A stretch of 64,000 nucleotides of DNA from positions 62,001-126,000 of the forward strand of contig JAFGUF010000031.1 of the NCBI GenBank assembly GCA_016938675.1. The letters run 5' to 3'. Shown piece by piece: positions 17,177 to 38,266 of the stretch. Each line of letters opens with the position of its first letter. Position 1 is the stretch's first letter. A program made the translations under genes and the position numbers. This DNA is from Clostridia bacterium. Lineage in GTDB: Bacteria; Bacillota; Clostridia; Christensenellales; UMGS416. Under the pieces are notes generated by a model. The model did no database searches, was not told the DNA's origin, and saw only the letters and a program-made list of their open reading frames with translations.

Positions 17177-17545
17177 GGGGGCGTACTGGTTTTCGACGGG
17201 GTCGGGGATCTATTGTAAGCGGGTCGCAGTTTCTCAAAATCTGCGTTAAAAAAGGTGAGATTAAATTTAAATGCAGAAAATAATACACAAAATTTCGCAT
17301 TAGCAGCCGCTTAATTTAAGCCTGCCGCTCATATCCTGCGAGGCTAGCATAACAGAATAGAGCGCTAAAAAATGCTAGATGCGGCTATCTAAGCTTTGCG
17401 ATAGTCTAAGATTTATGAAGCTACTTGCAGTTATGGTTTGTCATTTTGGACGGACTGTATAGGAAATTTTTCAAAGTGACTATATCCGTAGAAAGCGATA
17501 GAGTATCGGTTTCGGACAGGGGTTCGACTCCCCTCGCCTCCACCA
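17177..17545 (+). ncRNA. ssrA: transfer-messenger RNA (tmRNA, SsrA)
   Basis: The 5' end GGGGGCG pairs with CGCCTCC at 17535-17541 to make the tRNA-like acceptor stem, followed by A and CCA (17543-17545). The 5' motif TACTGGTTTTCGACGGGG and the T arm around GGTTCGACTCC are typical. The internal reading frame is at 17273-17314, starting at a GCA resume codon and encoding AENNTQNFALAAA then TAA. RNA length is about 369 nt. The 3' end is the integration target of the following island, and its last bases are part of the left attachment site. Confidence 0.95.
17527..17545 (+). other. attL: ssrA 3' end used as attachment site
   Basis: The T-arm and acceptor-stem part of ssrA directly precedes an integrase gene. 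A decayed match lies at 38206-38237, and a 10-bp exact match (ACTCCCCTCG) lies at 34915-34924. The exact crossover point cannot be fixed from this sequence. Confidence 0.6.
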
Positions 17546-17614: not shown

Positions 17615-17639
17615 GGCGGTAAACCGACAAAAAACCGCC
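17615..17639 (+). repeat. CCG(A/C)C repeats at the left end (block A)
   Basis: CCGAC (17624-17628) and CCGCC (17635-17639) are spaced 11 bp, with an inverted GGCGG at 17615-17619. The 17-mer AAACCGACAAAAAACCG (17621-17637) recurs exactly at 34563-34579. These resemble arm-type integrase sites at an element end (inference). Confidence 0.6.
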
Positions 17640-17731: not shown

Positions 17732-19114
17732 ATGGCACATGGCAGCATTAGAAAAATCGGTGATAAGTACGAAGTAACATTTGATTTCGGGAAAAATTCA
17801 GAAGGAAAACGAATAAGAAAATACAAACGCTTCTCATCATTCCGCAATGCAAGGAAAGCACTAGCTGAACATGACCATGCCGTTGAAGTAAAATCATTTG
17901 TTATGCCTACCGAATTAACATTAGGCGAATGGATGGATTTCTGGGTAGAAAGCATTATCGCGCCAAAATCAGCATATACCACAGTTTACGCATATAACAA
18001 CATAAAAAACAAATATATAAAGCCTCTGATTGGGCAAATAAAATTACAGGAAATTAATGCCCAACAAATTCAAAAATATTTATTACGTCTTAGCAACGAT
18101 TATCACTTATCACCAAACACAGTTATTAAACATTATGAGCTATTAAATTATTCAATGGGATTTGCATATAGGCAAGATTACGTTACCAAGAATCCCCTTG
18201 AAAAAGTTGAGCGACCTAAGAAACATCAGTATGAAGCAAAATTCTATACAACAGAACAATTGGCAGAATTGCTGACCTTAGTAAAAGGTGACCAGCTGGA
18301 GCTGACAGTAAATCTGGCAGCATATTTTGGATTAAGGCGAGGTGAGATATGCGGGCTGACATGGGAAGACGCGGATTTAGAGAACGAGATGATATATGTC
18401 CGGAGAACACGAACTTCCGCAGGTTCAGAAATTGTTGAAAAGGATACAAAAAACCGTGCATCGACAAGAAAACTGGCTATGCCTAAAACAATTAAATATT
18501 TGCTGGAAAAGGAACAGAAACATCAGCAGCAACGACGAAGGGAATTAGGAGCTGTATACATCGATACAGACTACATAATAGTAATGGATGGTGGCAAGCC
18601 ATATCGCCCGAATTATTTATCCCAACTTTTCGGGGAATTTTTAGAAAAGAATAACCTGCCAAGAATAGTACTTCACGAGCTACGGCACACATTTGCATCA
18701 CTTTCCAACGAAGCAGGAATACCTGAGTTTAATATCGGTAAGGCACTAGGTCACAGCACGCCGTCAACAACAAAGAAAATATATACTCACCTATTTGACC
18801 CAGTACAAACCAGTGCTATTAATAAGGTGGCAGAGATAGTAGACGATGCAGTAAAGCAACATAATACAGAAGCGGATAGAACAAATAGAACTGTAGTAAG
18901 TGTGATTAATGAATGGAATCCTATGAAATTTTCTGATGAAGATTTAGATTATAAGAAGGAAATAGAGTTGGTAGTAAATTATATGCTTGATGGTGGTGAT
19001 AAACAGTTGCTAGGGAAATTCATCTATGATACATTCAGGGAGAGCTTTGGGAGTAGGTTTTTTAAGTGTGATGAGGGTGAGTGTGAGTTGATTGGGAAGA
19101 GGATGCAATTATGA
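17732..19114 (+). CDS. tyrosine recombinase/integrase of the ssrA island
   Basis: The 460-residue protein catalyses site-specific integration and excision. The N-terminal arm-binding domain (about 1-50, basic) is followed by a SAM-like core-binding domain (about 60-150) and the catalytic domain. The catalytic set is Arg202 (LRRGEICGLTW), a Lys near 240, His315 and Arg318 (LHELRHTF), His341 (LGHSTPS) and the nucleophile Tyr351 (KIYTH). It runs about 100 residues beyond the tyrosine, which is longer than most relatives. The ribosome binding site is GAGAGGTG. It is directly adjacent to ssrA and overlaps the next gene by 4 bp. Confidence 0.95.
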   Translation: MAHGSIRKIGDKYEVTFDFGKNSEGKRIRKYKRFSSFRNARKALAEHDHAVEVKSFVMPTELTLGEWMDFWVESIIAPKSAYTTVYAYNNIKNKYIKPLIGQIKLQEINAQQIQKYLLRLSNDYHLSPNTVIKHYELLNYSMGFAYRQDYVTKNPLEKVERPKKHQYEAKFYTTEQLAELLTLVKGDQLELTVNLAAYFGLRRGEICGLTWEDADLENEMIYVRRTRTSAGSEIVEKDTKNRASTRKLAMPKTIKYLLEKEQKHQQQRRRELGAVYIDTDYIIVMDGGKPYRPNYLSQLFGEFLEKNNLPRIVLHELRHTFASLSNEAGIPEFNIGKALGHSTPSTTKKIYTHLFDPVQTSAINKVAEIVDDAVKQHNTEADRTNRTVVSVINEWNPMKFSDEDLDYKKEIELVVNYMLDGGDKQLLGKFIYDTFRESFGSRFFKCDEGECELIGKRMQL

Positions 19115-22588: not shown

Positions 22589-22801
22589 ATGAACAGTAAC
22601 AATTATTTCAAGAACTTATCCGATTTACCGCTTACCTTGAATGCGACCCAAATATCTCAAATTCTAGGACTATCCAGAGCAGGTGCATATAATTTGCTTG
22701 GCTCGAAGAACTTCCCCACCCTTCGTGTCGGTAAAAGAAAGCTTGTTCTGCGGGATAAGTTTATTGAATGGATGGAAGACAATTCAGGAGTGGCAGTATG
22801 A
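22589..22801 (+). CDS. excisionase-like helix-turn-helix protein
   Basis: This 70-residue protein contains a MerR/HTH_17-type winged helix: LTLNATQISQILGLSRAGAY then the wing LRVGKRKLVLRDKFIEWM. Such proteins are recombination directionality factors (Xis) or small regulators in mobile elements. It has a GGAGG ribosome binding site and its own promoter. Its stop overlaps the start of the DUF927-type ATPase (ATGA). It probably controls excision of the island together with the integrase 3.5 kb upstream. Confidence 0.8.
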   Translation: MNSNNYFKNLSDLPLTLNATQISQILGLSRAGAYNLLGSKNFPTLRVGKRKLVLRDKFIEWMEDNSGVAV

Positions 22802-24558
22802 CAGTCTGCCAGAAATCAAACTGGACAGACGAATTATATCCCAAGCCATATATAATAATAAACAACGAGCTCTATATGGAGTATGAAAGAAACGGTGACG
22901 TGCTCACCAAAAAGCTATGTAACTTTCTGCCCTATATAACAGGCGAAATAATCCATGATGACGGTGTAGATACCGAGCGATATGTATTATTGCAATGCAT
23001 CGATTCAAAAGGGAATATTTTGCCGGAGATTGAGCTTAAAGCATCCGACTTAGCCAATACATCTCTTAACTGGATAGTTAAGCACTGGGGGGCCAGATGC
23101 AACATTATGCCCGGGTATAATTCAAGAGACCATATACGCCATGCAATACAATGCACTGTCAGAAGGGTTATAACAGAGACTTTGTATAATCACTTTGGCT
23201 GGCGAAAGGTAGAAGGAAGATGGCACTTTTTAATGACAGGGCAAAGTTTTAAGGTAAAATCTGAAGGCGCACTAAAGAATTATTTCTTTAAAATTCTGCA
23301 TGAGAAAAAATCTGTAGAATCTGCATTTGAATTTTTCAATTGCAATGTTGTGCCGGACGAAATTTTATATCCCCTGTTGAGTTTTGTGTTTCTAACGCCG
23401 CTAAACCATTTTCTGAAGATTGCGGGTTGTGAAACCAAAACAGTCATGTGCCTGGTAGGCAAGACCGGAACGAAAAAGTCTACGTTAGCAGCACTGATGT
23501 TATCTTTCTTTGGTAGCTTTACAAATACGGAGCTGCCGCTATCATTTCGTGATACAGCAAACAGCATAGTGCACAATGCATTTTTTCTGAAAGATGTTTT
23601 GACAGTAATTGATGATTATCATCCATCCACTAAGAATGAAGAACAACAGATGAATTCAACTGCACAAACAATAATGCGAGCCTATGGGGACAGGGTGGGC
23701 AGAAACAAGCTGAGGAGCGATAGCTCCTTGCTTGTTGGCAAGCCGCCGAGAGGTAATGCATTAATAACAGGCGAGCAAGCACCGGATATCACTGAAAGCG
23801 GTGTTGCAAGAACTATACAGCTGGAAATCAAAAAAGATAGTATTGCTATTGAGCCATTGTGCAAAATGCAAAACATTGCTGCAAAAGGTTATTTGTCATC
23901 AGCAATGTATCACTATCTCAAGTGGATTGAAATAACTAAACTGAGCAATGAGCATGCGTATGCAGAATCATTGAAGACAGACTTCGATACATATCGACTA
24001 AAGCTAATACACAGGCTGAATGCCGATGGTATCACATATCATGCAAGGCTACCTGAAGTTGGGGCTCATTTGAAAATAGGTCTTTTGCATATGATGGAAT
24101 ATTTCATGTGGAAGGGCATGCTTTCGGTTGATGAATACGATCAGAAAGTACTGGACGGTACAAATGTTATTTATGAAATAATTAAAGAGCAGGCAGGTGC
24201 TGTAAGAAATGATGAACCGAGTACAAAGTTTATTTCAAAACTGAATACGCTACTAGACTCTGGAAAAGCAGTAACGGATAATTTGAGTTCACCATCGGAT
24301 ATAAAACCTCATGGGTTTATAGGCTATGAAGATAATGAATACTATTATTTGCTATCAGATATTGCTCACAGCATGGTGAAGAATTTATGCTCCGAGCAAG
24401 GAGAACTGTTTACTGCATCAACAAAGAGTCTGCAGAAGCAACTAAAGGAAGAAGGTTATTTGTCCACGAATGATGGACGGTCAACTACAGTTGTAAAGGT
24501 AGCAGGGCATCCCACTCGGCTGCTAAAAATACCTAAGAACAAACTCGACTGTGCATAA
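22798..24558 (+). CDS. DUF927-type replication ATPase/helicase
   Basis: This protein has 586 residues. The N-terminal half resembles the DUF927 region found in plasmid and phage primase-helicases. The ATPase core has Walker A LVGKTGTKKST (about residue 217) and Walker B VLTVIDDYHP, then an arginine-rich sensor region. Superfamily-3-like ATPases of this sort drive autonomous replication of integrative mobilizable elements in Firmicutes. I start it at the ATG at 22798 overlapping the excisionase stop; an in-frame ATG at 22768 lies inside that gene. The iteron-like repeats just downstream are a plausible origin for it. Confidence 0.8.
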   Translation: MTVCQKSNWTDELYPKPYIIINNELYMEYERNGDVLTKKLCNFLPYITGEIIHDDGVDTERYVLLQCIDSKGNILPEIELKASDLANTSLNWIVKHWGARCNIMPGYNSRDHIRHAIQCTVRRVITETLYNHFGWRKVEGRWHFLMTGQSFKVKSEGALKNYFFKILHEKKSVESAFEFFNCNVVPDEILYPLLSFVFLTPLNHFLKIAGCETKTVMCLVGKTGTKKSTLAALMLSFFGSFTNTELPLSFRDTANSIVHNAFFLKDVLTVIDDYHPSTKNEEQQMNSTAQTIMRAYGDRVGRNKLRSDSSLLVGKPPRGNALITGEQAPDITESGVARTIQLEIKKDSIAIEPLCKMQNIAAKGYLSSAMYHYLKWIEITKLSNEHAYAESLKTDFDTYRLKLIHRLNADGITYHARLPEVGAHLKIGLLHMMEYFMWKGMLSVDEYDQKVLDGTNVIYEIIKEQAGAVRNDEPSTKFISKLNTLLDSGKAVTDNLSSPSDIKPHGFIGYEDNEYYYLLSDIAHSMVKNLCSEQGELFTASTKSLQKQLKEEGYLSTNDGRSTTVVKVAGHPTRLLKIPKNKLDCA

Positions 24559-26853: not shown

Positions 26854-28344
26854 ATGGCTGAAAATTCACTTAACTTTGAAAAAGAACTCTGGGCAGCTGC
26901 GGACAAGCTGCGCGGCAGCATGGATGCCAGCGAATACAAACACGTAGTGCTGGGATTAATATTCCTGAAGTACATATCCGATAAATTCGAAGACAGATAC
27001 AACGAGCTGGTGGAAGAAGACGAAGGCTTCGAAGAGGACGTTGACGAGTACACAATGCAAGGCATTTTCTTTGTGCCGCCTGAAGCCAGATGGAGCCACA
27101 TACAAAACAACGCCACAACGCCTGAAATCGGCAAGCTGGTGGATGAAGCAATGACAGCCATTGAAACCCAGAATAAAAAGCTAAAGGGCGTGTTGCCCAA
27201 AAACTACGCACGCCCGGAGCTGGATAAGCGCAGGCTGGGCGAAGTTATCAACCTATTTTCCAATCTGAAACTCCACGGCAAAGAAGAAAGAGACACATTA
27301 GGCAGAGTATATGAATATTGCCTGTCTATGTTTGCAGAAGCTGAGGGCAAGCGCGGCGGCGAATTCTACACCCCTGCGTGCGTGGTTCAAACCATTGTTG
27401 AAGTGCTGCGCCCATACAAAGGCAGAGTGTACGACCCTGCGTGCGGAAGCGGCGGCATGTTTGTGCAGTCGGCAAAGTTTTTGGAGGCACACCAAGGCAA
27501 TCTGCAGGATATATCCGTGTATGGGCAGGAGAGCAACCCCACCACATGGAAAATGTGCATGATGAACCTTGCTATCCGTGGCATTGAGGCAAACCTCGGT
27601 GAGTACAATGCAGACTCATTTACAAAGGATATGCACAAAACATTGAAGGCTGACTTTGTGCTTGCTAATCCGCCATTTAATATGGACTGGCCGCAGTCGC
27701 AGGTGGCAAATGATCCACGCTGGAAATATGGCCTGCCGCCCAGTGCCAATGCCAACTACGCATGGATGCAGCATATGATACATCACCTTGCGCCAAATGG
27801 TAAGCTGGGCTTAGTACTTGCCAATGGTTCGCTTTCTTCTCAGGCATCGGGCGAGGGCGACATCCGCCAAAAGATACTGGAGGATGACATGGTGGAGTGC
27901 ATCATCGCTATGCCGTCACAGCTTTTCTATACCACGCAAATCCCTGTGTGCCTGTGGTTTATATCCAGAAATAAAAAACGCAAAGGCGAGACTTTGTTTA
28001 TAGATGCCAGAAACATGGGCACTATGGTCTCCCGCAAGCTGCGTGAGCTGACGGAAGAAGACATAAAATTAATTGCAGACACAGTGAAAAGCTGGCAGGA
28101 AGATGACGGCTATGAAGATGTTGCAGGCTTTTGTAATATGGCAACATTAGATGATATTAAAAAGAATGACTACATTCTCACCCCCGGGCGCTATGTGGGG
28201 CTGCCGGAGGAGGAAGAGGATGATGAGCCTTTTGAGGAGAAGATGGATAGGCTGACTAGTGAGTTGTCACAGCTTTTTAAAGAGGGTGATAGGCTGCAGG
28301 ATGAGGTTCGGGAGCAGTTGAAGGGGATTGGGTATGAGCTTTAA
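26854..28344 (+). CDS. hsdM: type I restriction-modification methyltransferase subunit HsdM
   Basis: This 496-residue N6-adenine DNA methyltransferase has an N-terminal HsdM helical domain (FEKELWAAADKLRGSMD...KYISDKFE), the SAM-binding motif YDPACGSGGMF (about residue 194) preceded by GGEFYTPACVV, and the catalytic motif ANPPF. It uses codons richer in G and C than the neighbouring hsdS, more like the host chromosome. The order hsdM-(small membrane gene)-hsdS-(membrane gene)-hsdR differs from standard operons only in the inserted genes. Confidence 0.95.
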   Translation: MAENSLNFEKELWAAADKLRGSMDASEYKHVVLGLIFLKYISDKFEDRYNELVEEDEGFEEDVDEYTMQGIFFVPPEARWSHIQNNATTPEIGKLVDEAMTAIETQNKKLKGVLPKNYARPELDKRRLGEVINLFSNLKLHGKEERDTLGRVYEYCLSMFAEAEGKRGGEFYTPACVVQTIVEVLRPYKGRVYDPACGSGGMFVQSAKFLEAHQGNLQDISVYGQESNPTTWKMCMMNLAIRGIEANLGEYNADSFTKDMHKTLKADFVLANPPFNMDWPQSQVANDPRWKYGLPPSANANYAWMQHMIHHLAPNGKLGLVLANGSLSSQASGEGDIRQKILEDDMVECIIAMPSQLFYTTQIPVCLWFISRNKKRKGETLFIDARNMGTMVSRKLRELTEEDIKLIADTVKSWQEDDGYEDVAGFCNMATLDDIKKNDYILTPGRYVGLPEEEEDDEPFEEKMDRLTSELSQLFKEGDRLQDEVREQLKGIGYEL

Positions 28345-28576
28345 ATGGAATGATGTAAAAAATAAATCAAGTAAAGAATTATATGAAATTCTTAATGATG
28401 AGATAATTAATAAAGGCGGTAATGTTTCGATTGAGTTTCTTTCTAGTGAAATGAGAAGAAAAGAACAGAAGGAACAAAACAAAATAATGATTATATGTAC
28501 TGTAGCTATAACATTAATGACACTGGTGATTTTGTTCGCAACTTTGATAAGTGCGAATATAATTAGTTGTGGGTGA
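28334..28576 (+). CDS. small membrane protein embedded in the hsd operon
   Basis: This 80-residue protein has a charged N-terminal helix (EMRRKEQKEQNK) followed by one hydrophobic segment at about residues 54-76. It starts at the ATG at 28334 inside the hsdM end, 7 nt after AAGGGG, and its stop lies just before hsdS, so it is translationally linked to both. It is AT-rich. No family recognised; not part of standard type I systems. Confidence 0.55.
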   Translation: MSFKWNDVKNKSSKELYEILNDEIINKGGNVSIEFLSSEMRRKEQKEQNKIMIICTVAITLMTLVILFATLISANIISCG

Positions 28577-28580
28577 TAGT

Positions 28581-29834
28581 ATGAATGAAAGGAGAATATA
28601 TAAATTTGAGGATATATTTATTATTAGTTCAGGATTATCAAAAAACAGAAAAGATTTTGGGTTTGGCTTCCCTTTTTTAACATTCAAAGATGTTTTCTAT
28701 AATTATTTTTTACCTGCCAAATTAGAAAATTTAGCAAACACAAATGAAAGAGAAAGAAAAACCTGTTCTATTGAAAAAGGTGATTTGTTTTTAACAAGGA
28801 CAAGTGAAACACAAGATGAATTAGGCATGAGTAGCGTTGCTTTGAAAGATTATAAAGATGCTACCTTTAATGGATTTACAAAGCGGCTAAGAATTAAAGA
28901 TGATTATAAAAGTAAGATTGATTTTTTATATTTGGGTTATTATATGAGAAGCTCGAAAATACGAAATCAAATTGCTAGTCTTTCAGCAATGACGACTAGA
29001 GCAAGTTTAAATAGCTCAATGATTAATAGCTTAGAACTCAGCATTCCACAAATAGAAGTGCAGAAAAAAATTGGGTGTATTCTATTCTCTCTTGACAATA
29101 AAGTAGAAAACAACCGCAAAACAGCAGAAAAGCTGGAAGAAATAGCACAGGCGATTTTTAAAAGATGGTTTGTGGATTTTGAGTTTCCTAATGAGGATGG
29201 CGAGCCTTATAAATCTAGTGGTGGGGAGATGGTTTATTGTGAGGAACTGGGAAAGGATGTGCCGAAGGGGTGGGAAGTTACATCTTTAATAGATATGGCG
29301 GAATTTGTTAATGGATTGGCTTTGAAAAGATTCCCTCCCAAGAATACTAACGATGAGCTCAAAGTTTTAAAAATAAAAGAACTAGGTCAAGGTTATTGTG
29401 ATGAAAACAGTGATTTAGCAAGTAGAGAAGTTGATGACAAGTATATTATAAATGCTGGAGATTTAATATTTTCATGGTCAGGTAGTTTGATGGTTAAATT
29501 TTGGACAAGTGATACTTGTTTTCTTAATCAACATCTATTTAATGTCCTTAGTAAAGAAGGATATAATAGAGCATTTTTATATTTGGTTATTCATTATTTT
29601 ATTGATGTATTTAGATTAATTGCATCATCAAAGGCTACAACAATGGGACATATTAAAAGGTCTGATTTGGAGAATTCGTATTTTCCAATTGATAAGGATT
29701 TAGTGGAACGATTCAATGATATTATTATGCCAACTATTGAAAAGATGATACATTGTGGAGTAGAAAATGAAAGGCTACAAAAAGTTAGGGATGCTTTATT
29801 GCCGAAGTTGATGAGCGGGGAGATTGAGGTATAG
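28581..29834 (+). CDS. hsdS: type I restriction-modification specificity subunit HsdS
   Basis: This protein has about 417 residues. Two target-recognition domains (about 1-150 and 215-370) are each followed by a conserved helical spacer: IPQIEVQKKIGCILFSLDNK...LEEIAQAIFKRWF in the middle and RDALLPKLMSGEIEV at the end. Each domain reads one half of a split DNA target. The start at 28581 follows a GGGTGAT site; an in-frame GTG at 28569 adds four residues. Its AT-rich composition contrasts with hsdM, consistent with exchange of recognition domains. Confidence 0.93.
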   Translation: MNERRIYKFEDIFIISSGLSKNRKDFGFGFPFLTFKDVFYNYFLPAKLENLANTNERERKTCSIEKGDLFLTRTSETQDELGMSSVALKDYKDATFNGFTKRLRIKDDYKSKIDFLYLGYYMRSSKIRNQIASLSAMTTRASLNSSMINSLELSIPQIEVQKKIGCILFSLDNKVENNRKTAEKLEEIAQAIFKRWFVDFEFPNEDGEPYKSSGGEMVYCEELGKDVPKGWEVTSLIDMAEFVNGLALKRFPPKNTNDELKVLKIKELGQGYCDENSDLASREVDDKYIINAGDLIFSWSGSLMVKFWTSDTCFLNQHLFNVLSKEGYNRAFLYLVIHYFIDVFRLIASSKATTMGHIKRSDLENSYFPIDKDLVERFNDIIMPTIEKMIHCGVENERLQKVRDALLPKLMSGEIEV

Positions 29835-29838
29835 ATAT

Positions 29839-30456
29839 ATGGATGCAATAAGACCAGAAGTTCAAGAACAAATTGTACGAATATTAACTGAATTAGAAGC
29901 ATATCTTACAAAAGCTAATCAACTAGACTGGATGGCTCTTTCTAGTATAATAGCCAGTTTTTTAATAAGTGTAGTGGCAATTTGTATTAGTTTAAAAACA
30001 GCTAAAGATCAAAAAAAGCTTTTGCAAAAACAGAATGATATTGCGTTATTTGATAAAAAAATAGAGTGCATTAGCAAGTTTAAGGATTTTAGCTATGCTC
30101 TATATTTTTGCTTGATGCATTCTGAAAGCGAAGAAGCTTTTATTGATAGATTTTACTATAAGTTAGGAATAACAGAAAAAAATGAAAAAGAAAAAGCAGA
30201 ACTATTTATCTATGATATAAGAACTGTGAATAGTTTGAAGTATTTATTTAGTAATAAAGTGAGTGATATTATTGAAGAATGGTTTGCATTATCGCGAACA
30301 ATATTTTTTAATATAGCTTTATATTCTTTTAACGCAAAACTTATTGATGAGGATATTAAAGCATTTTACAAAAAAAAGCAAGAATATATTAGTTTTTATG
30401 ATGAGAAAATTGCGAGTGAGCTTTTTGGAGCTTTTAAAATTGAGATTAAGTTATAA
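29839..30456 (+). CDS. single-pass membrane protein embedded in the hsd operon
   Basis: This protein has 205 residues. A hydrophobic segment at about 33-52 is followed by a helical KTAKDQKKLLQKQNDIALFDKK stretch and an alpha-helical soluble domain. A Q-x-x-x-x-x-LFDKR-like motif after one transmembrane helix is common in small membrane proteins of mobile elements and defence islands (from memory, not a search). The ATG at 29839 lies 8 nt after GAGGT, overlapping the hsdS end region; hsdR follows 16 bp downstream. Function unknown. Confidence 0.6.
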   Translation: MDAIRPEVQEQIVRILTELEAYLTKANQLDWMALSSIIASFLISVVAICISLKTAKDQKKLLQKQNDIALFDKKIECISKFKDFSYALYFCLMHSESEEAFIDRFYYKLGITEKNEKEKAELFIYDIRTVNSLKYLFSNKVSDIIEEWFALSRTIFFNIALYSFNAKLIDEDIKAFYKKKQEYISFYDEKIASELFGAFKIEIKL

Positions 30457-30472
30457 TACAGGAGATTAGAAT

Positions 30473-33223
30473 ATGGTCGCGTCATTCACCGAAGCAAACT
30501 ACGAAAACGCAATAATAGAACTATTCGAAAATGAACTGGAGTATGAATATATACCCGGTTACACTTTTGAGCGCGATTACAAAGATGTAGTTCTAGTAAA
30601 AGAATTGCGCCAGCAAATCCAGCGCATCAATCCCACCGCAGATGCCTTGGCTGTGGATGAAGCCATAAGGCTGGTTCTATCCTGCGATTCCCCAAACCTT
30701 ATACATAACAATAAAGCCTTTCATGACCTTTTAACTGCCGGTGTTTCGGTGAGTTATTATAAAGGTGGCAACAAAAGCGACCACATATGGCTGGTTGATT
30801 TTAACAATACAGACAATAACAGCTTTATCATTTCCAATCAGTTTACAGTGGTGGATAATGCCACAAAAAGACCCGATGTAGTAATTTTTATTAATGGTCT
30901 TCCCCTCGTTGTACTGGAGCTGAAATCCTGCAGCAGAGAGCAGGCAGATGCCAGCGAGGCGTTTTTGCAGATACGCAATTATCTGCAGGCAATACCAAGC
31001 CTTTTCACCTATAATTCATTCTGTGTGCTATCCGATATGATAAATACAAAGGCAGGCACAATTACAGCGGATGAAGACAGATTTATGAGCTGGAAGTCAA
31101 CAGACGGCAGCTACGAGGACACTCGCCTTGCCAGCTTCACTACGCTGTTTAAAGGCATGTTTGATAAAGACCGCCTGCTGAATATCATCAGAAACTTTGT
31201 ACTATTTGTCGGCACTCGTGATGATGAACCCATTAAAATACTATCTGCGTATCATCAGTTCTATGCAGTAAATAAAGCAGTGGATAAAACATTTCATGCA
31301 GTCAAGTCAGACGGTAAAGCAGGCGTATTTTGGCATACGCAGGGCAGCGGCAAGTCGTTGTCTATGGTTTTTTATTCCGCCATGCTCAAGTCCATTTTAA
31401 ACAACCCGACCTTGGTTATCCTGACCGATAGAAACGATTTGGACGACCAGCTTTTCAATACATTTTCCAGCGCAGCCAGCCACCTTCGCGAAGTACCTGT
31501 GCAGGCACAGAGCAGAGCGCACCTAAAGGAGCTGCTGGATGGCATAGAGGCAGGCGGCATTATATTTACCACCATGCAGAAATTCGAGGAAGGCACAGCA
31601 ACTCTTTCCGAAAGGCGAAATATTGTGCTCATTGCAGATGAAGCCCACCGCAGCCAATATGGGCTGGAAGCACAGGTGGATAGAAAGACCGGCAAGCTAA
31701 GCTATGGCATGGCAAAGTATGTCCGTGACGCTCTGCCTAATGCGTCATTTATCGGCTTCACAGGTACACCTATAGATTCAAAGGACAGGTCAACGCAGGA
31801 GATATTCGGCGACTATATCGATATATACGACATGACACAGGCAGTGGAAGACGGCGCAACCAAGCCGATATTCTATGAAAGCCGTGTAATGAACCTAAAG
31901 CTGGATGAAGATATTCTGAAGAAAATTGACCAAGAATACGAGAGCATGGCAGAGATTGCAGAGCCGTATCATATAGAGCGTTCACAAAAAGAACTTGGCA
32001 ATATGGAGGCAATACTCGGCGCAGATGAAACGATAGCCGAGCTTTGTGGCGATATCATCAGCCACTACGAGGACAGAGCACATATCCTTGAAGGCAAGGC
32101 AATGATAGTAGCCTATTCGCGTAAAGTCGCAATGAAGATGTACAACAAAATACTAGACATGCGCCCAGCTTGGAAAGATAAGCTGGCAATTGTAATGACC
32201 AGAAACAATAAAGACCCGGAGGAGTGGTTCCAATTAATCGGCGGCAAAACCGAACGTGATGAGAGAGGCAAGCAGTTTAAAGACCCGAAAAGCGAGCTTA
32301 AAATATGCATAGTTGTTGATATGTGGCTTACAGGCTTTGATGTACCCAGCCTTAACACGATGTATATCTATAAGCCGATGCAAGGGCACACCCTTATGCA
32401 GGCAATCGCCAGAGTTAACCGCGTGTATGGTGATAAGGAAGGTGGACTGGTCGTTGATTATGTTGGAATAGCAAGCGCACTAAGAAAAGCCATGAAGGAC
32501 TTCACAAATCGTGATAAAAAAGCCTTCACAAATAATGATATCGGTAAAATTGCATTGCCAAAGTTTATGGAGAAGCTGGAGATATTGCGTGACTTGATGT
32601 ATGGCCTTGACTACAGTTCTTTTTTTGGTGAAAGCGACACAGACAGAGCAAATGTTATCGCAGATGGCATTAACTTTATCTATAACGACCCTGAAAATAA
32701 AGACATATATCTAAAAGAAGCTACAGCTCTAAGGCAGGCTGAAACACTGTGTCGATCCTTACTGGATGAAAGAATAAAAATGGAAGTTGCATTTTTTGAG
32801 GCTGTTCGCAGTGGTATATCTAAAATATCAGGAACAGGAAAGATAAGTGTTAGGGAAATAAACGCTAGAATAAATCAGCTGCTTAAAGAGAGTATCAAAA
32901 GCGAAGGCATTATTAATATCTTTGAAGATAACAAAGAATTTTCAATTTTCGACCCGGAATATCTATTAAGTCTGCAGAATATGAAGCAAAAGAATTTAGC
33001 GGCAGAGTTGCTTAGAAAATTATTGGCTGACGAAATAAAAGGATATACTAGAACTAATCTTGTTAAGTCCGAGCTGTTCTCAAAGAAGCTAGAAGATCTT
33101 ATGAAAAAGTATAGAAACAGTCAGATATCCAATGCCGAAGTTATTGAACAACTTATTAAAATCGCTGAAGAAATTGCAAAAGCTCATAAAGAAGGAAATG
33201 ATATGGGCTTAAACGCTGAGTAG
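30473..33223 (+). CDS. hsdR: type I restriction endonuclease subunit HsdR, ends at a premature amber codon
   Basis: This 916-residue frame has the N-terminal nuclease domain (RPDVVIFINGLPLVVLELK, PD-ExK type, about residues 140-160) and a translocase motor with Walker A HTQGSGKSLSM, DEAH in IADEAHRSQYG, motif III GFTGTPI and motif VI QAIARVNRVYG. The frame ends at TAG (33221-33223), and the same frame continues without a gap into the family's usual C-terminal helical domain. The product would lack about 97 C-terminal residues that contact the methylase. Base composition shifts to AT-rich after about 32.6 kb. Confidence 0.9.
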   Translation: MVASFTEANYENAIIELFENELEYEYIPGYTFERDYKDVVLVKELRQQIQRINPTADALAVDEAIRLVLSCDSPNLIHNNKAFHDLLTAGVSVSYYKGGNKSDHIWLVDFNNTDNNSFIISNQFTVVDNATKRPDVVIFINGLPLVVLELKSCSREQADASEAFLQIRNYLQAIPSLFTYNSFCVLSDMINTKAGTITADEDRFMSWKSTDGSYEDTRLASFTTLFKGMFDKDRLLNIIRNFVLFVGTRDDEPIKILSAYHQFYAVNKAVDKTFHAVKSDGKAGVFWHTQGSGKSLSMVFYSAMLKSILNNPTLVILTDRNDLDDQLFNTFSSAASHLREVPVQAQSRAHLKELLDGIEAGGIIFTTMQKFEEGTATLSERRNIVLIADEAHRSQYGLEAQVDRKTGKLSYGMAKYVRDALPNASFIGFTGTPIDSKDRSTQEIFGDYIDIYDMTQAVEDGATKPIFYESRVMNLKLDEDILKKIDQEYESMAEIAEPYHIERSQKELGNMEAILGADETIAELCGDIISHYEDRAHILEGKAMIVAYSRKVAMKMYNKILDMRPAWKDKLAIVMTRNNKDPEEWFQLIGGKTERDERGKQFKDPKSELKICIVVDMWLTGFDVPSLNTMYIYKPMQGHTLMQAIARVNRVYGDKEGGLVVDYVGIASALRKAMKDFTNRDKKAFTNNDIGKIALPKFMEKLEILRDLMYGLDYSSFFGESDTDRANVIADGINFIYNDPENKDIYLKEATALRQAETLCRSLLDERIKMEVAFFEAVRSGISKISGTGKISVREINARINQLLKESIKSEGIINIFEDNKEFSIFDPEYLLSLQNMKQKNLAAELLRKLLADEIKGYTRTNLVKSELFSKKLEDLMKKYRNSQISNAEVIEQLIKIAEEIAKAHKEGNDMGLNAE

Positions 33224-33517
33224 TTGGCTTTCTATGATGCCATATCAAAACCACAGAATATAAATGATTTTTACTCAAATCAAGAACTTATTGATATGAC
33301 ACATGAGCTTACAGATATGCTTAGGAAAAATCGTACAATAGATTGGCAGCTAAAAGACCAAGGCAGAGCAAAGATGCGTTCTATGATAAAGCGGCTTTTG
33401 AAAAAATATAAGTATCCACCGGAAGAAGAGCAGAATGCAATTGATATTGTGTTAAGGCAGGCTGAGAGTATGGATATGGAAACTAACAACTATCGAGGAG
33501 AAAGAGCATATGGTTGA
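33224..33517 (+). pseudogene. C-terminal HsdR fragment after in-frame amber stop
   Basis: Ninety-seven codons continue the hsdR frame directly after TAG. The segment LAFYDAI...TIDWQLKDQGRAKM...IKRLLKKYKYPPEE is the DUF3387-type C-terminus of HsdR. The first codon is TTG, but no ribosome binding site is present, so it is not a separate gene. It is expressed only if the amber codon is suppressed or bypassed. Confidence 0.85.
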
Positions 33518-33557
33518 TACGGATTCGGAATAATATAAACAGAAAAAATAAAATATA

Positions 33558-33586
33558 TTGATATTGTTCCGATAAAAGCATATAAT
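33558..33586 (+). promoter_or_regulatory. promoter of the Fic gene
   Basis: TTGATA (33558-33563), 17 bp spacer, TATAAT (33581-33586), 17 bp before the ATG with an intervening GAGGTG ribosome binding site. Confidence 0.7.
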
Positions 33587-33603
33587 ACACATGAGGTGTA
33601 ATT

Positions 33604-34521
33604 ATGTATTTATCTACAAAGCAAATAGCCGAAAAATGGGGAATAAGCGATCGTAGAGTTCGTATTCTTTGTGATGAAGGCAAGCTTGATGGAGCGTTTA
33701 AAGAAGGAAAGTCATGGAGAATACCTGAAAACACTCAAAAGCCAATAGATAAAAGGCTTAAAATAAGCGAAAATATTCCTCAAGAATTTGAAAGCATTTT
33801 TACACGTATTGAAAATAAAAGATCTGAACTTAATAAAAGACGTCCACTTACTAAGGGAGAGGTTGAAAGACTGAGGAAAGAGTTCTTAGTGGAATTTACC
33901 TATAACTCTAATGCAATTGAAGGCAATACATTAACATTAAGTGAAACAGAAGCAGTAATAAATGATAATGTCACTATTGGTGGCAAACCACTAAAAGACC
34001 ATCTTGAAGCGATAGGGCACAAAGAAGCGTATGAGTATATGCTCCAACTTGCAGATAGCAAAAAAACCTTTTCAGAGAAAATTATAAAAGAAATACATTC
34101 TCTTGTATTAGCAGATAAACAAGAGGATAGAGGCATTTACAGACGTATTACTGTAAGGATATCAGGAGCGCTTCATGAGCCTCCGCAGCCTTATATGATT
34201 TCACCTCTTATGGAAAAACTGATTGCCGAATATAAGGACATGCAAGACTTGCATACTATTGAACGTGCTGCATTGTTTCATTTGAAATTTGAGAGCATTC
34301 ATCCATTTATTGATGGCAATGGTCGATGCGGTCGATTGTTGCTTAACTTTGATTTGATTAAGAACGGTTATCCGAATATAAATATCAAGTTCACAGACAG
34401 ACAGAAATATTATGATTGTTTTAATGATTATCATTTGCATAGTAGCCATTCTAAAATGACTAATTTACTAGCTGTATATGTTGAAGAAATGCTTGATAAA
34501 TATTTAGATATATTGCTTTAA
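33604..34521 (+). CDS. Fic family protein with N-terminal HTH
   Basis: This 305-residue protein has an N-terminal MerR-like helix-turn-helix (about 1-45: STKQIAEKWGISDRRVRILC), a Fic_N helical region and the Fic core. The catalytic motif HPFIDGNGRCGR (about residue 237) has all AMPylation residues. The inhibitory motif S-x-x-x-E-G is present as SNAIEG (about residue 100), so it is a self-inhibited class II enzyme. It likely transfers AMP to a protein target. It has its own promoter after the hsd operon. A toxin, regulator or defence role is possible. Confidence 0.9.
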   Translation: MYLSTKQIAEKWGISDRRVRILCDEGKLDGAFKEGKSWRIPENTQKPIDKRLKISENIPQEFESIFTRIENKRSELNKRRPLTKGEVERLRKEFLVEFTYNSNAIEGNTLTLSETEAVINDNVTIGGKPLKDHLEAIGHKEAYEYMLQLADSKKTFSEKIIKEIHSLVLADKQEDRGIYRRITVRISGALHEPPQPYMISPLMEKLIAEYKDMQDLHTIERAALFHLKFESIHPFIDGNGRCGRLLLNFDLIKNGYPNINIKFTDRQKYYDCFNDYHLHSSHSKMTNLLAVYVEEMLDKYLDILL

Positions 34522-34565
34522 TTGCAAATAATTTATATCGTGTTCACCCTTATAATTTGACAAAA

Positions 34566-34671
34566 CCGACAAAAAACCGACATCAAAACCGCCAACTGAA
34601 ATTATAAAATATTTTTATGAAAACAAGTAAAATTTATAATTAGCTTGTTTTTGTTTTATATGCCCAAATTT
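34566..34671 (+). repeat. element-end repeat block B
   Basis: CCGAC at 34566 and 34577, CCGCC at 34589, then the conserved TGCCCAAATT at 34661-34670. The 17-mer at 34563-34579 is identical to block A at the island left end. Confidence 0.6.
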
Positions 34672-34740: not shown

Positions 34741-34851
34741 CCGCCAAAACCGCCTTAAAATAGCCAACTCAGTGTAATTATTGCTCAGCTTTTGCTTTGC
34801 ACAAAAATTATGCAGGTTTTAATGATTTTTATTGTCTAGTGTGCACAAATT
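34741..34851 (+). repeat. element-end repeat block D
   Basis: CCGCC at 34741 and 34750, a degenerate TAGCC at 34761 in the same context (GCCAACT) as block B, then GTGTGCACAAATT at 34839-34851, aligned to GTGTGCCCAAATT of block C. Confidence 0.55.
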
Positions 34852-34914
34852 AATTAGTAATACTTTATCTAGTTCTGCTGTGTTTTTATTTATAACCATT
34901 TTGAGAAAAGCAGT

Positions 34915-34933
34915 ACTCCCCTCGTGTTAAGTA
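34915..34933 (+). other. possible internal attachment-site remnant
   Basis: ACTCCCCTCG (34915-34924) is identical to ssrA positions 17527-17536. It lies about 71 bp after the conserved motif of block D, the same distance at which block C is followed by its tmRNA remnant. The following bases have diverged. Confidence 0.45.
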
Positions 34934-35145: not shown

Positions 35146-35176
35146 CAATATAATGTAAATGTTGCGGAGGAAGGAA

Positions 35177-35557
35177 ATGTCTAAATCAGAACTGGCTAGA
35201 AAACATATTATGCAGGCAATGAACAATAATTTGGGTAAAACAAGAGAAGAAATGGGTGTTACACCTAGGGTTGCATTTGACAATGTCCCTGAAAAGAGTA
35301 CTCTAGAAAAGAATGACTATGCAAATTTTTTCAACAATTTTTTAATAGTTGAGGAAGATTGGTTTAGAGAAGAATTTGAATATGTATTGTCATTTATTTC
35401 CACGGGTAAAATGTCTACTAAGAAACAAAAAACAATTAAAGTTTTCAAGTATGCAATACATCAATATGGTCAAGATAATGCTAGTGTTTCAGAGGAGTGG
35501 GTTGTAAGAAACACAAAAATGATGAGAGATTTTATTAACAGTTTTCCTAATCAATAG
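35177..35557 (+). CDS. small hypothetical protein of the HD cassette
   Basis: This 126-residue protein is of unknown function. The N-terminal third is basic and helical (SKSELARKHIMQAM), a Phe-rich acidic centre (YANFFNNFLIVEEDWF) follows, and the C-terminus is helical. There are no membrane segments and no metal motif. The ATG at 35177 is chosen because GGAGG lies 8 nt upstream; an in-frame ATG at 35159 would contain it. It lies 65 bp before the large HD-like gene in the same orientation, with similar AT-rich codon use, so the two form a probable operon. Confidence 0.6.
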   Translation: MSKSELARKHIMQAMNNNLGKTREEMGVTPRVAFDNVPEKSTLEKNDYANFFNNFLIVEEDWFREEFEYVLSFISTGKMSTKKQKTIKVFKYAIHQYGQDNASVSEEWVVRNTKMMRDFINSFPNQ

Positions 35558-35622
35558 AGCTGGAATCGTTTTGTATATTTAATTTAAATTATACGGGAGA
35601 GGGCTTTAAAAAGGAGCAAGAT

Positions 35623-37983
35623 ATGTATTTTGGAAGTGATATTAAGCGAACTATTTATATAAGTCTTTTTGAGAACAATGAGAATATCAATTATAGAAAA
35701 GAATTTGATTTATTAAAAGATAGGATATTCCCTAATATTAATTTATTTAAAAATTTTTTGATGTGCACTCAGAATCAAGAAAGATTTGAATTAGCAAAAA
35801 GAATAGTACAACAATTGTCTTTAGAATCTAATTTTACTCCTTCATATGAATATTATAAAATACTTTTTCGTGCAGAACAAAAGGATAATTTTAATGACAA
35901 ATATATTGGGAAAGATCATTTTATACACATAGTACATCTTTATTTATTCGGAATTTATGTGTTTTTTTATAATAAGAAATTAAGTTCAAGAATTATTAAT
36001 CAACTATCTTATTCTAGAACTAATCAAATGGGTAGTACTGTTCTTGATTCTATAAGGGATTTTGTTAGGTGCTGGAAGTACTTTGTTTTATATCATGACA
36101 TAGGATATATAGCGGAACTTAACGATAGCGCTTCTATAGATTTATTTGAAAAAATGAAAGTTAAGATTGGCACCTCTCTAAATATGCAAACTAGAATAGA
36201 TGTTATTTCACGATTATTTGTTATTGTTTCAAAAGTTTTTGAAAAGAACAGAAATTACTCGGACAATTTATATGAGATGCGGAAATATAATGACAGCCTG
36301 AATAATGGATTTAGATTCGGTGAAGAAATACTAAATAGCATGAAGGATTATTGGCTATTAGAGGATGTAAATGATTTAAGTGATTTAAAATATTTTTTAC
36401 TAGTTTATAGTAAAAATGATTTTTGTATCTTATATAGAAGGAAATACTCAAGAGAAATATTAGCAGCTTATTACAAATATGATGGTATTATTGGTGATAA
36501 AAAAGACAAAGTAAAATTTATAATTAATGAAGGTGCTCTCTCAGATGTATCAGATAAAGATAATAAATTGTTGTATGAATTAAAGCAAAATCCTGAAATT
36601 GTAATATCAAATAAGTATTATAGCTTTGATAATATTGAGATGCTATTTTATGTAGTGGAACCAAAAGACAAATTAGACAAGTATTTAATTCAGAATTTTA
36701 ATAGTGAGTACTTTATAGCTAGAATAAAGAATGAAAGTATAATAGAGTATTTTTACGAAAATGTATCATTTTTGGTTAATGAATGCAGTAAAGGAAATGA
36801 GCTTTCTAGTATTGATGATAGCCTATCAGTAAAAAACTTATACATGAACATATATAAATATGTATATGAGTTTTTAATGTCTCTAGATAATAGAGAAGAA
36901 AAATTATATTTAGAAGTGTTGGAAAAAAGTATTGATGATATTTCCAGCGACTTATTAAGCCAAGTGCTTAAAGAGACTGAAAACATTAATTATGAAGAAG
37001 AGGATTCTTCATATAGCAATATTAATAATGTTATAACAATGTTTTCCAACAAAATGTTCAAGAAACTTGATTTGGTATTAAGGGATGAAGCAAAGAAAAA
37101 GTCAATTATAAAATACTTGTATTTTAAACATGGGAATATTGTAAACATGAGAGACTTTATATTTGAATCCTATAGAAGTTTTAAAACAAAAGAGTTAAAT
37201 TTGAATTTTGATGGAGAAGGAAATAATTTATATTCTTCACCATTATCATTTGAGTCATTTTTTGATGATCTAGATAAATCATTCAAAAGTACAAAACATA
37301 AAAATAATATTGAGCTGTTTAGATGCAGATTTGAAGAATCATATATGAATATTCTGATTAGTTGTGGAATTAGAAAAGAAAATATTTCTTATAATATAAT
37401 AGAATCATATAAAAACCCGCATTCTAAATATGACCATAGTCTTATTTCTACAGAAATATTGTTGACGCATATAAAATATTATTTTTGGTTGCTGAAAAGT
37501 TTTGATAGAAATTCTATAAATCTATTCAATGAACAAATGTCATCAGTTAGTGAAATTATAGAAAAATATTCAGCAACATTACATCATGTTATTTTGGCAG
37601 TTATTATGCACAATATATATCCAGGTAATTTCGAAAAAATTGATAGGGAAGTAGATTATTTAAATTCAAAATTGATTAATTGTAGAATATCACTTACAAA
37701 TTCACCATTTATTTATTTTGCTTGTTTATGTGATAGTTTGCAGACATGGGATAGACCATATTGTAAGAATCCAGCGTTTAATAGGCTTGATGAAACAAAA
37801 AGTTTTTTAAATAATTTTAGTAATATCAAAATAGAAAATGATGAAATTATTATTAAGCTTACGGGATATTCTAACAATGACATTAAGAAAGCTGTTGATA
37901 TGTTTTCATTAGGATTAGATAGCTATTTAAAAAATGCCTCGCTAGTTGTAAAATTTGATACTTCTAGTAGTAGCAATATATGA
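35623..37983 (+). CDS. large protein with two HD-like phosphohydrolase modules
   Basis: This 786-residue protein is AT-rich. The N-terminal module has His99, His102 and His105 (GKDHFIHIVHLYLFG) and His158-Asp159 in LYHDIGY. The C-terminal module has His600, Asp604-His605 (NPHSKYDHS), His654-His655 and His663-Asn664 (HHVILAVIMHNIY), and Asp704 in CDSLQTWDRP. This order of His, HD/HN and late Asp is that of HD metal-dependent phosphohydrolases. The middle (about 200-590) is unrecognised. It probably acts on a nucleotide or RNA substrate (inference). It lies between two element-end copies, so it is mobile cargo. Confidence 0.6.
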   Translation: MYFGSDIKRTIYISLFENNENINYRKEFDLLKDRIFPNINLFKNFLMCTQNQERFELAKRIVQQLSLESNFTPSYEYYKILFRAEQKDNFNDKYIGKDHFIHIVHLYLFGIYVFFYNKKLSSRIINQLSYSRTNQMGSTVLDSIRDFVRCWKYFVLYHDIGYIAELNDSASIDLFEKMKVKIGTSLNMQTRIDVISRLFVIVSKVFEKNRNYSDNLYEMRKYNDSLNNGFRFGEEILNSMKDYWLLEDVNDLSDLKYFLLVYSKNDFCILYRRKYSREILAAYYKYDGIIGDKKDKVKFIINEGALSDVSDKDNKLLYELKQNPEIVISNKYYSFDNIEMLFYVVEPKDKLDKYLIQNFNSEYFIARIKNESIIEYFYENVSFLVNECSKGNELSSIDDSLSVKNLYMNIYKYVYEFLMSLDNREEKLYLEVLEKSIDDISSDLLSQVLKETENINYEEEDSSYSNINNVITMFSNKMFKKLDLVLRDEAKKKSIIKYLYFKHGNIVNMRDFIFESYRSFKTKELNLNFDGEGNNLYSSPLSFESFFDDLDKSFKSTKHKNNIELFRCRFEESYMNILISCGIRKENISYNIIESYKNPHSKYDHSLISTEILLTHIKYYFWLLKSFDRNSINLFNEQMSSVSEIIEKYSATLHHVILAVIMHNIYPGNFEKIDREVDYLNSKLINCRISLTNSPFIYFACLCDSLQTWDRPYCKNPAFNRLDETKSFLNNFSNIKIENDEIIIKLTGYSNNDIKKAVDMFSLGLDSYLKNASLVVKFDTSSSSNI

Positions 37984-38040: not shown

Positions 38041-38150
38041 CCGCCAAAAAACCGACTTGAAACCGCCAAGTCGGTTTTGCAACTTCTTAGACGATGCTTC
38101 ACACCATAGATTTAGTGAAATTTCATAGATTTTCTTTGTCTTGTGTGCCC
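38041..38150 (+). repeat. element-end repeat block C
   Basis: CCGCC (38041), CCGAC (38052) and CCGCC (38063) are spaced exactly 11 bp, followed at 38144-38155 by GTGTGCCCAAAT. AACCGCCAAGT is shared with block A at the left end. Confidence 0.65.
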
Positions 38151-38205
38151 AAATTTAATAGACATATTATAGAAAATGTAACAAAATTTACTAATTAGAA
38201 AACGG

Positions 38206-38237
38206 GAACACCAGGTCGACCCATCTTGCCTCTACCA
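38206..38237 (+). other. decayed tmRNA 3' end, probable attR
   Basis: Ungapped comparison with the last 32 bases of ssrA (17514-17545) gives 22 identities by hand count, including GTCGAC-like TCGAC, GCCTC and ACCA at the very end. It is followed within 7 bp by a terminator hairpin. Confidence 0.6.
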
Positions 38238-38243
38238 TTTATA

Positions 38244-38266
38244 ACCGTCTGAATAGGCGGTTTTTT
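38244..38266 (+). terminator. terminator, probably the original ssrA terminator
   Basis: Stem ACCGTC / GGCGGT (one T-G pair) with a 6-nt loop, followed by six T. It is positioned directly after the tmRNA remnant as expected for a displaced ssrA terminator. Confidence 0.65.

Follow-up and report, generated by a model that had tools for sequence, protein, structure and literature searches.

We analysed a stretch of 64,000 nucleotides, here called the window, which comprises bases 62001-126000 of contig C1 in a genome of 2.62 Mb and 45 contigs. Two adjacent genes, A and B, occur in it as the sole cargo between two copies of an element end (34741-34867 and 38041-38171). The genes and the parts of gene B are as follows.

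35177..35557, forward strand: gene A, 126 amino acids (132 amino acids from an in-frame ATG at 35159), without homologue or family in the sets searched
35623..37983, forward strand: gene B, 786 amino acids, HD-superfamily-type protein with a predicted single split HD domain
35848..36255, forward strand: N-terminal half of the HD domain, residues 76-211, with DH99..H102 and H158-D159 (YHDIGY)
36256..37344, forward strand: insertion of ~360 residues (212-574) that none of the relatives found possesses, with a low-confidence model
37345..37887, forward strand: C-terminal half of the HD domain, residues 575-755, with DH605, H663-N664 and CD704..Q707.W709.R711

Both genes are intact open reading frames, separated by a gap of 65 nt and each preceded by a ribosome-binding-like site. 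A preliminary description of the locus had reported both frames, which are indeed present and open, and had quoted a series of His and Asp residues from gene B, every one of which we found: H99, H158-D159, H605, H663-N664 and D704 (in CDSLQTWDRP). The cassette has a G+C content of 26%, against 36-43% in the surrounding DNA, and is known in one copy only.

Homologue searches with the whole B protein or with gene A returned no true relative; weak matches (L002-L005, L007 and L012) proved to be unrelated proteins of chance similarity, and scanning viral contigs for DNA motifs yielded chance matches only. The first relatives came from a search whose alignment combined the real B sequence with hand-written motif variants modelled on HD families, and which was used for steering only. 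Its product, L013, whose two motif sets both fall inside 250 residues, seeded a scan across some 85,000 species genomes, and the conclusions below rest on confirmed natural sequences. The scan yielded 62 loci, with tblastn E values down to 6e-11; DH605 and HN664 lay outside the search patterns, and the tblastn values are independent of them. The family alignment was confined to the HD region; a full-length MAFFT alignment misplaced the C-terminal half.

A family profile built without B matched B in two places, residues 76-211 (profile positions 77-203, 41 bits) and residues 575-755 (profile positions 225-366, 42 bits). The HD domain of B belongs to the family by this profile, with an E value of 7e-21 against 2000 shuffles of B, the best of which reached 0.11. 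The two halves are collinear, and in every relative they are adjacent to each other. The distance between D159 and H605, however, is 446 residues in B versus 63-123 in 69 family HD domains, and the HD-to-CD distance is 545 versus 127-223 residues. Collinear halves at such a spacing argue, therefore, for a single HD-type site interrupted by ~360 inserted residues, so that at the level of sequence B is a single HD-type domain, H99...H158-D159...H605...H663...D704, with the extra residues inside it. The preliminary description had instead read B as a double HD protein. A pair of independent HD domains with one metal site apiece would account for the two separated clusters of His and Asp residues, but each half hits a different stretch of one domain and the spacing is off; moreover, the N-terminal half has no DH, HN or CD motif of its own and the C-terminal half no HDIGY, which makes two domains very improbable. 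A split HD site can evidently be mistaken for two domains.

The 69 full-motif HD domains share one motif order: DH..H, HDIGY, DH, HN and LCDxLQxW.R. In the family alignment of 70 sequences H99, H102, H158, D159, G161 and Y162 are invariant, as are H605, C703, D704, Q707 and R711, and the motif residues overall, DH605 and HN664 among them, are invariant or nearly so. This conservation is partly selected, because the relatives were first picked by motif. The H...HD...D metal motif of the HD superfamily is present as H99, H158-D159 and D704, together with H605 and H663, and the earlier suggestion of an HD-type metalloenzyme is supported. B would be a metal-dependent HD-superfamily phosphohydrolase or phosphodiesterase-like enzyme with one catalytic domain, whose candidate ligands are H99, H158, D159, H605, H663 and D704, in the order H-HD-H-H-D.

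B matched no model in Pfam, NCBIfam or PADLOC and nothing meaningful in PHROGs, in keeping with the earlier statement that it is not part of a named system. Pfam HD (PF01966) gave a match in one of 39 family members (E 0.0054), and of five relatives examined four (L014, L037, L044 and L055) gave sub-threshold hits at HDIGY (E 0.03-0.16). The preliminary description had proposed structure prediction and a fold search as a check. AlphaFold with the family alignment placed the motif helices of B at pLDDT >90 and most of the insert at <50 (the mean was 35 when B was modelled from its single sequence), but fold searches with the B model against the PDB and viral models found no significant match. 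A profile search of PDB sequences was likewise negative. Because neither search gave a match, the HD fold is deduced from the motifs; the assignment appears strong by motif and weak by fold.

The family is patchy in distribution, occurring in 7 of 381 genomes of the class, and its HD domain is usually fused to RyR/R12; the other partners are LRR-Roc-COR or P-loop modules. RyR (PF02026) was found in 25 of the 39 members scanned and LRR-Roc-COR in two. B (motifs DH..H, HDIGY, DH, HN and LCDxLQxW.R) has the same HD domain as this accessory HD-RyR family (L013-L075), one member of which is also encoded in the genome of the window (contig C23). Unlike them, B has no RyR domain and carries inside its HD domain the insert of ~360 residues that no relative has. 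Nor does B have a fused LRR-Roc-COR or NTPase module: Pfam found none, and the profile of the relatives' tail scored 2.8 bits. A hidden RyR domain within the insert was considered and rejected on the same score. Whole-protein searches found no close homologue of insert 212-574, which may take the place of the fused sensor module.

B sits on a very long branch of the family tree. Closest to it (local support 0.95) are two LRR-Roc-COR-HD proteins (L015 and L029) and a P-loop-HD protein (L014), which have in common with B the motifs and the segment preceding the HD domain. They differ from B in their length of 1296-1451 residues, their N-terminal sensor or NTPase part and their unbroken HD domain, whereas B has no NTPase or LRR match.

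Several members of the family are of interest in their own right. L015:4461-8546 and L029:4686-9041, from the same genome, combine LRR-Roc-COR with a C-terminal HD domain, an NLR-like architecture with an HD effector. The 1296-aa protein at L014:5178-9068, the top-scoring relative of B, has a Walker-A type N-terminus, an HD domain and zero Pfam matches, and its gene adjoins that of a serine recombinase. Tandem pairs of HD-family genes occur at ten loci (L019, L027, L030, L036, L043, L053, L059, L063, L069 and L071), mostly in Methanobrevibacter, and small genes of similar sequence often lie upstream of them. The second HD-family protein in the genome of the window (C23:62424-63626; L087 7906-9642, minus strand) is an ordinary HD-RyR protein of 578 aa; the neighbours of its gene are a TGHRDL-type SLOG-like gene without a Pfam match, a kinase-like gene and two HTH-like genes.

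We then counted TIR genes around the family loci, pairing contigs by number and coordinates. Twelve of the 36 TIR genes in 19 genomes (~45 Mb) fall inside 20 family loci, which cover ~0.31 Mb or about 0.7% of the DNA; this is roughly 50 times the expectation. At L023, L026, L046, L066, L075 and L077 (and L039) the next gene on the same strand is a TIR gene, with gaps of about -25 to 32 nt. These TIR-adjacent HD genes, mostly HD-RyR, are candidate Thoeris-like operons with an HD effector. Neighbours of the relatives also match the PADLOC models MADS, AriA, HEC, AbiLi and PDC, a set that includes generic ATPase families and comes without a background rate. Phage proteins with an RyR domain bind cADPR signals or degrade them (PMC13232231), so HD-RyR-TIR loci are plausible signalling systems. 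B itself adjoins neither a TIR or SLOG gene nor any gene for making a signal; its island also carries a type I restriction-modification system and a Fic protein. The defence context is, thus, strong for the RyR-bearing relatives and indirect for B.

The island that contains the cassette is inserted at ssrA, and its features are the following.

17177..17545, forward strand: ssrA (tmRNA), the insertion site
17732..19114, forward strand: tyrosine integrase of the island, next after ssrA
26854: HsdM-like island gene
28569: HsdS island gene
30473: HsdR island gene
33604: HTH-Fic island gene
34562-34587: related CCGACAAAAAACCGACA box, grouped with the inner right end
34741..34867, forward strand: inner copy of the element right end, which aligns with the outer copy
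34915..34924, forward strand: ACTCCCCTCG, 10/10 identical to the ssrA 3' end, a candidate decayed att site that alone is within chance
38041..38171, forward strand: outer copy of the element right end, which aligns with the inner copy
38216..38262, forward strand: candidate outer attR, with ssrA 3'-end-like TCGACCCATCTTGCCTCTACCA (17/22) and then a hairpin

The integrase has a relative of 48% identity just 3' of ssrA in another genome (G002), from the same taxonomic family. Up to ~34521 the island encodes a relaxase, a type I restriction system and an HTH-Fic protein. Pfam matched neither a 596-aa island protein (22768-24558) nor a 210-aa gene between HsdS and HsdR; the restriction system and the HTH-Fic gene after it span 26854-34521.

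The preliminary description had placed the gene pair between two element-end copies. Indeed, the inner and outer right ends align with a score of 77, where none of 300 dinucleotide-shuffle pairs exceeded 61, although the two copies have diverged to about two thirds identity. Both right ends share the box AAACCGACAAAAAACCG(C/A)CA (AAACCGACAAAAAACCGCCA) with the left end, next to ssrA at 17621. The offset of ACTCCCCTCG from the inner end repeat approximates that of the outer ssrA-like copy, ~45 bases beyond each end, and a terminator-like hairpin (38243-38262) directly follows TCGACCCATCTTGCCTCTACCA. Taken alone, the likeness of ACTCCCCTCG and TCGACCCATCTTGCCTCTACCA to the ssrA 3' end falls inside the shuffle range; the pieces are credible because of their position and the terminator, and we read TCGACCCATCTTGCCTCTACCA with its hairpin as the displaced native ssrA end. 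The locus thus has an integrase beside ssrA, recurring ends and an ssrA duplicate that is weak (17/22) but accompanied by a terminator, as an ssrA-targeting integrative element does, and the earlier inference of mobility is supported.

The cassette may be what remains of an earlier element at this ssrA site, or its passenger, A and B having been left as a small cassette of their own between the two right ends of elements inserted there in succession. On this reading, small cargo cassettes can remain stacked at ssrA. The strong divergence of the end repeats, the barely recognisable inner att site and the lack of any known close relative would also suit a decaying, functionless remnant, left in AT-rich form by some older ssrA element. 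Against decay, stop codons interrupt neither the 126-codon nor the 786-codon frame, at a G+C content of 26%, and all candidate catalytic residues are retained; we regard a functionless cassette as quite improbable.

Gene A matched no family in Pfam, NCBIfam, PADLOC or PHROGs, antitoxin families included. We could not find a homologue of it beside any of the 62 loci related to gene B, nor did searches of 399 genomes from the phylum, of plasmids, of phages and of viral contigs yield one. The two-gene unit is therefore a local observation, and the two-component module of the preliminary description lacks conserved linkage. The operator-like palindrome reported upstream also fell away, as dyads of 6-7 nt in the 80 nt upstream were reached by 53-56% of shuffles. 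These results bear on whether the genes form a toxin-antitoxin style pair, in which B would be a toxic HD enzyme, A its antitoxin and maintenance of the mobile element the main function. The small gene directly upstream at 65 nt, the ribosome-binding sites of each gene and their position as sole cargo of a mobile cassette fit such a pair, and restrained toxicity has a precedent in a two-gene HD defence system, Clover, whose CloA is toxic without CloB (PMC12265719). Yet gene A resembles no antitoxin, the relatives of B manage without it and the palindrome is at chance level, so that we consider a pair of this kind unlikely.

Because its distant relatives lie in immune-signalling loci, B is probably a phage-defence effector; that it is one gated by its insert, and perhaps by gene A too, we put at a probability of roughly 0.5. 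B would belong to an accessory HD family fused to sensor modules (RyR/R12, LRR-Roc-COR or P-loop) in immune-type neighbourhoods, with its insert of ~360 residues as the regulatory part. The insert, with or without the gene A product, would hold B off until a cue of phage infection freed it, whereupon the HD site would hydrolyse a nucleotide or nucleic-acid substrate and phage growth would stop. In a wider and more doubtful form of this proposal, the HD-RyR family might be an as yet unrecognised class of immune effectors gated by a signal. TIR or SLOG-like partners would produce or detect this signal, of ADP-ribose type, RyR/R12 would bind it, and killing would fall to the HD domain; in B the insert would replace RyR and sense infection directly.

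The main rivals of the defence-effector reading are the toxin-antitoxin pair and an enzyme that degrades a signal. Cyclic-dinucleotide phosphodiesterases are among the HD enzymes that have five or six His/Asp ligands, and B could have a regulatory role, breaking down a nucleotide second messenger and so controlling how much signal is present instead of killing. Such a role would suit the relatives, which adjoin TIR genes and contain RyR/R12, a domain family that in phages binds cADPR signals or degrades them (PMC13232231). B, however, has neither a RyR domain nor an adjacent signal-making gene, and we think a second-messenger regulator improbable. If the defence-effector reading is right, this HD enzyme family joins the effectors of bacterial immune signalling and is linked to RyR/R12 domains, for which work of 2026 demonstrated binding and degradation of cADPR immune signals in phages, and the HD-RyR-TIR operons are concrete and testable.

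The HD chemistry class is already known, as are HD effectors in two-gene defence; the libraries and open-licence literature searched contained neither the split HD nor a named family nor the HD-RyR/TIR association. Clover consists of the dNTPase CloA, toxic on its own, and the nucleotidyltransferase CloB (PMC12265719). A and B would share with it the plan of a two-gene defence with an HD metalloenzyme effector, and are set apart from it by models only: neither gene matches PADLOC, and gene A (126 aa) has no Pfam nucleotidyltransferase match. In Thoeris, where a TIR protein is paired with a ThsA-type effector, TIR makes cADPR, which phage RyDEP (PF02026) degrades or sequesters (PMC13232231). 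No TIR was found among the cassette and island genes scanned, PADLOC matched neither A nor B, and B has neither RyR nor TIR; its link to Thoeris and to RyR/R12 signalling proteins runs via the family, whose members, like those systems, combine RyR domains with adjacent TIR genes.
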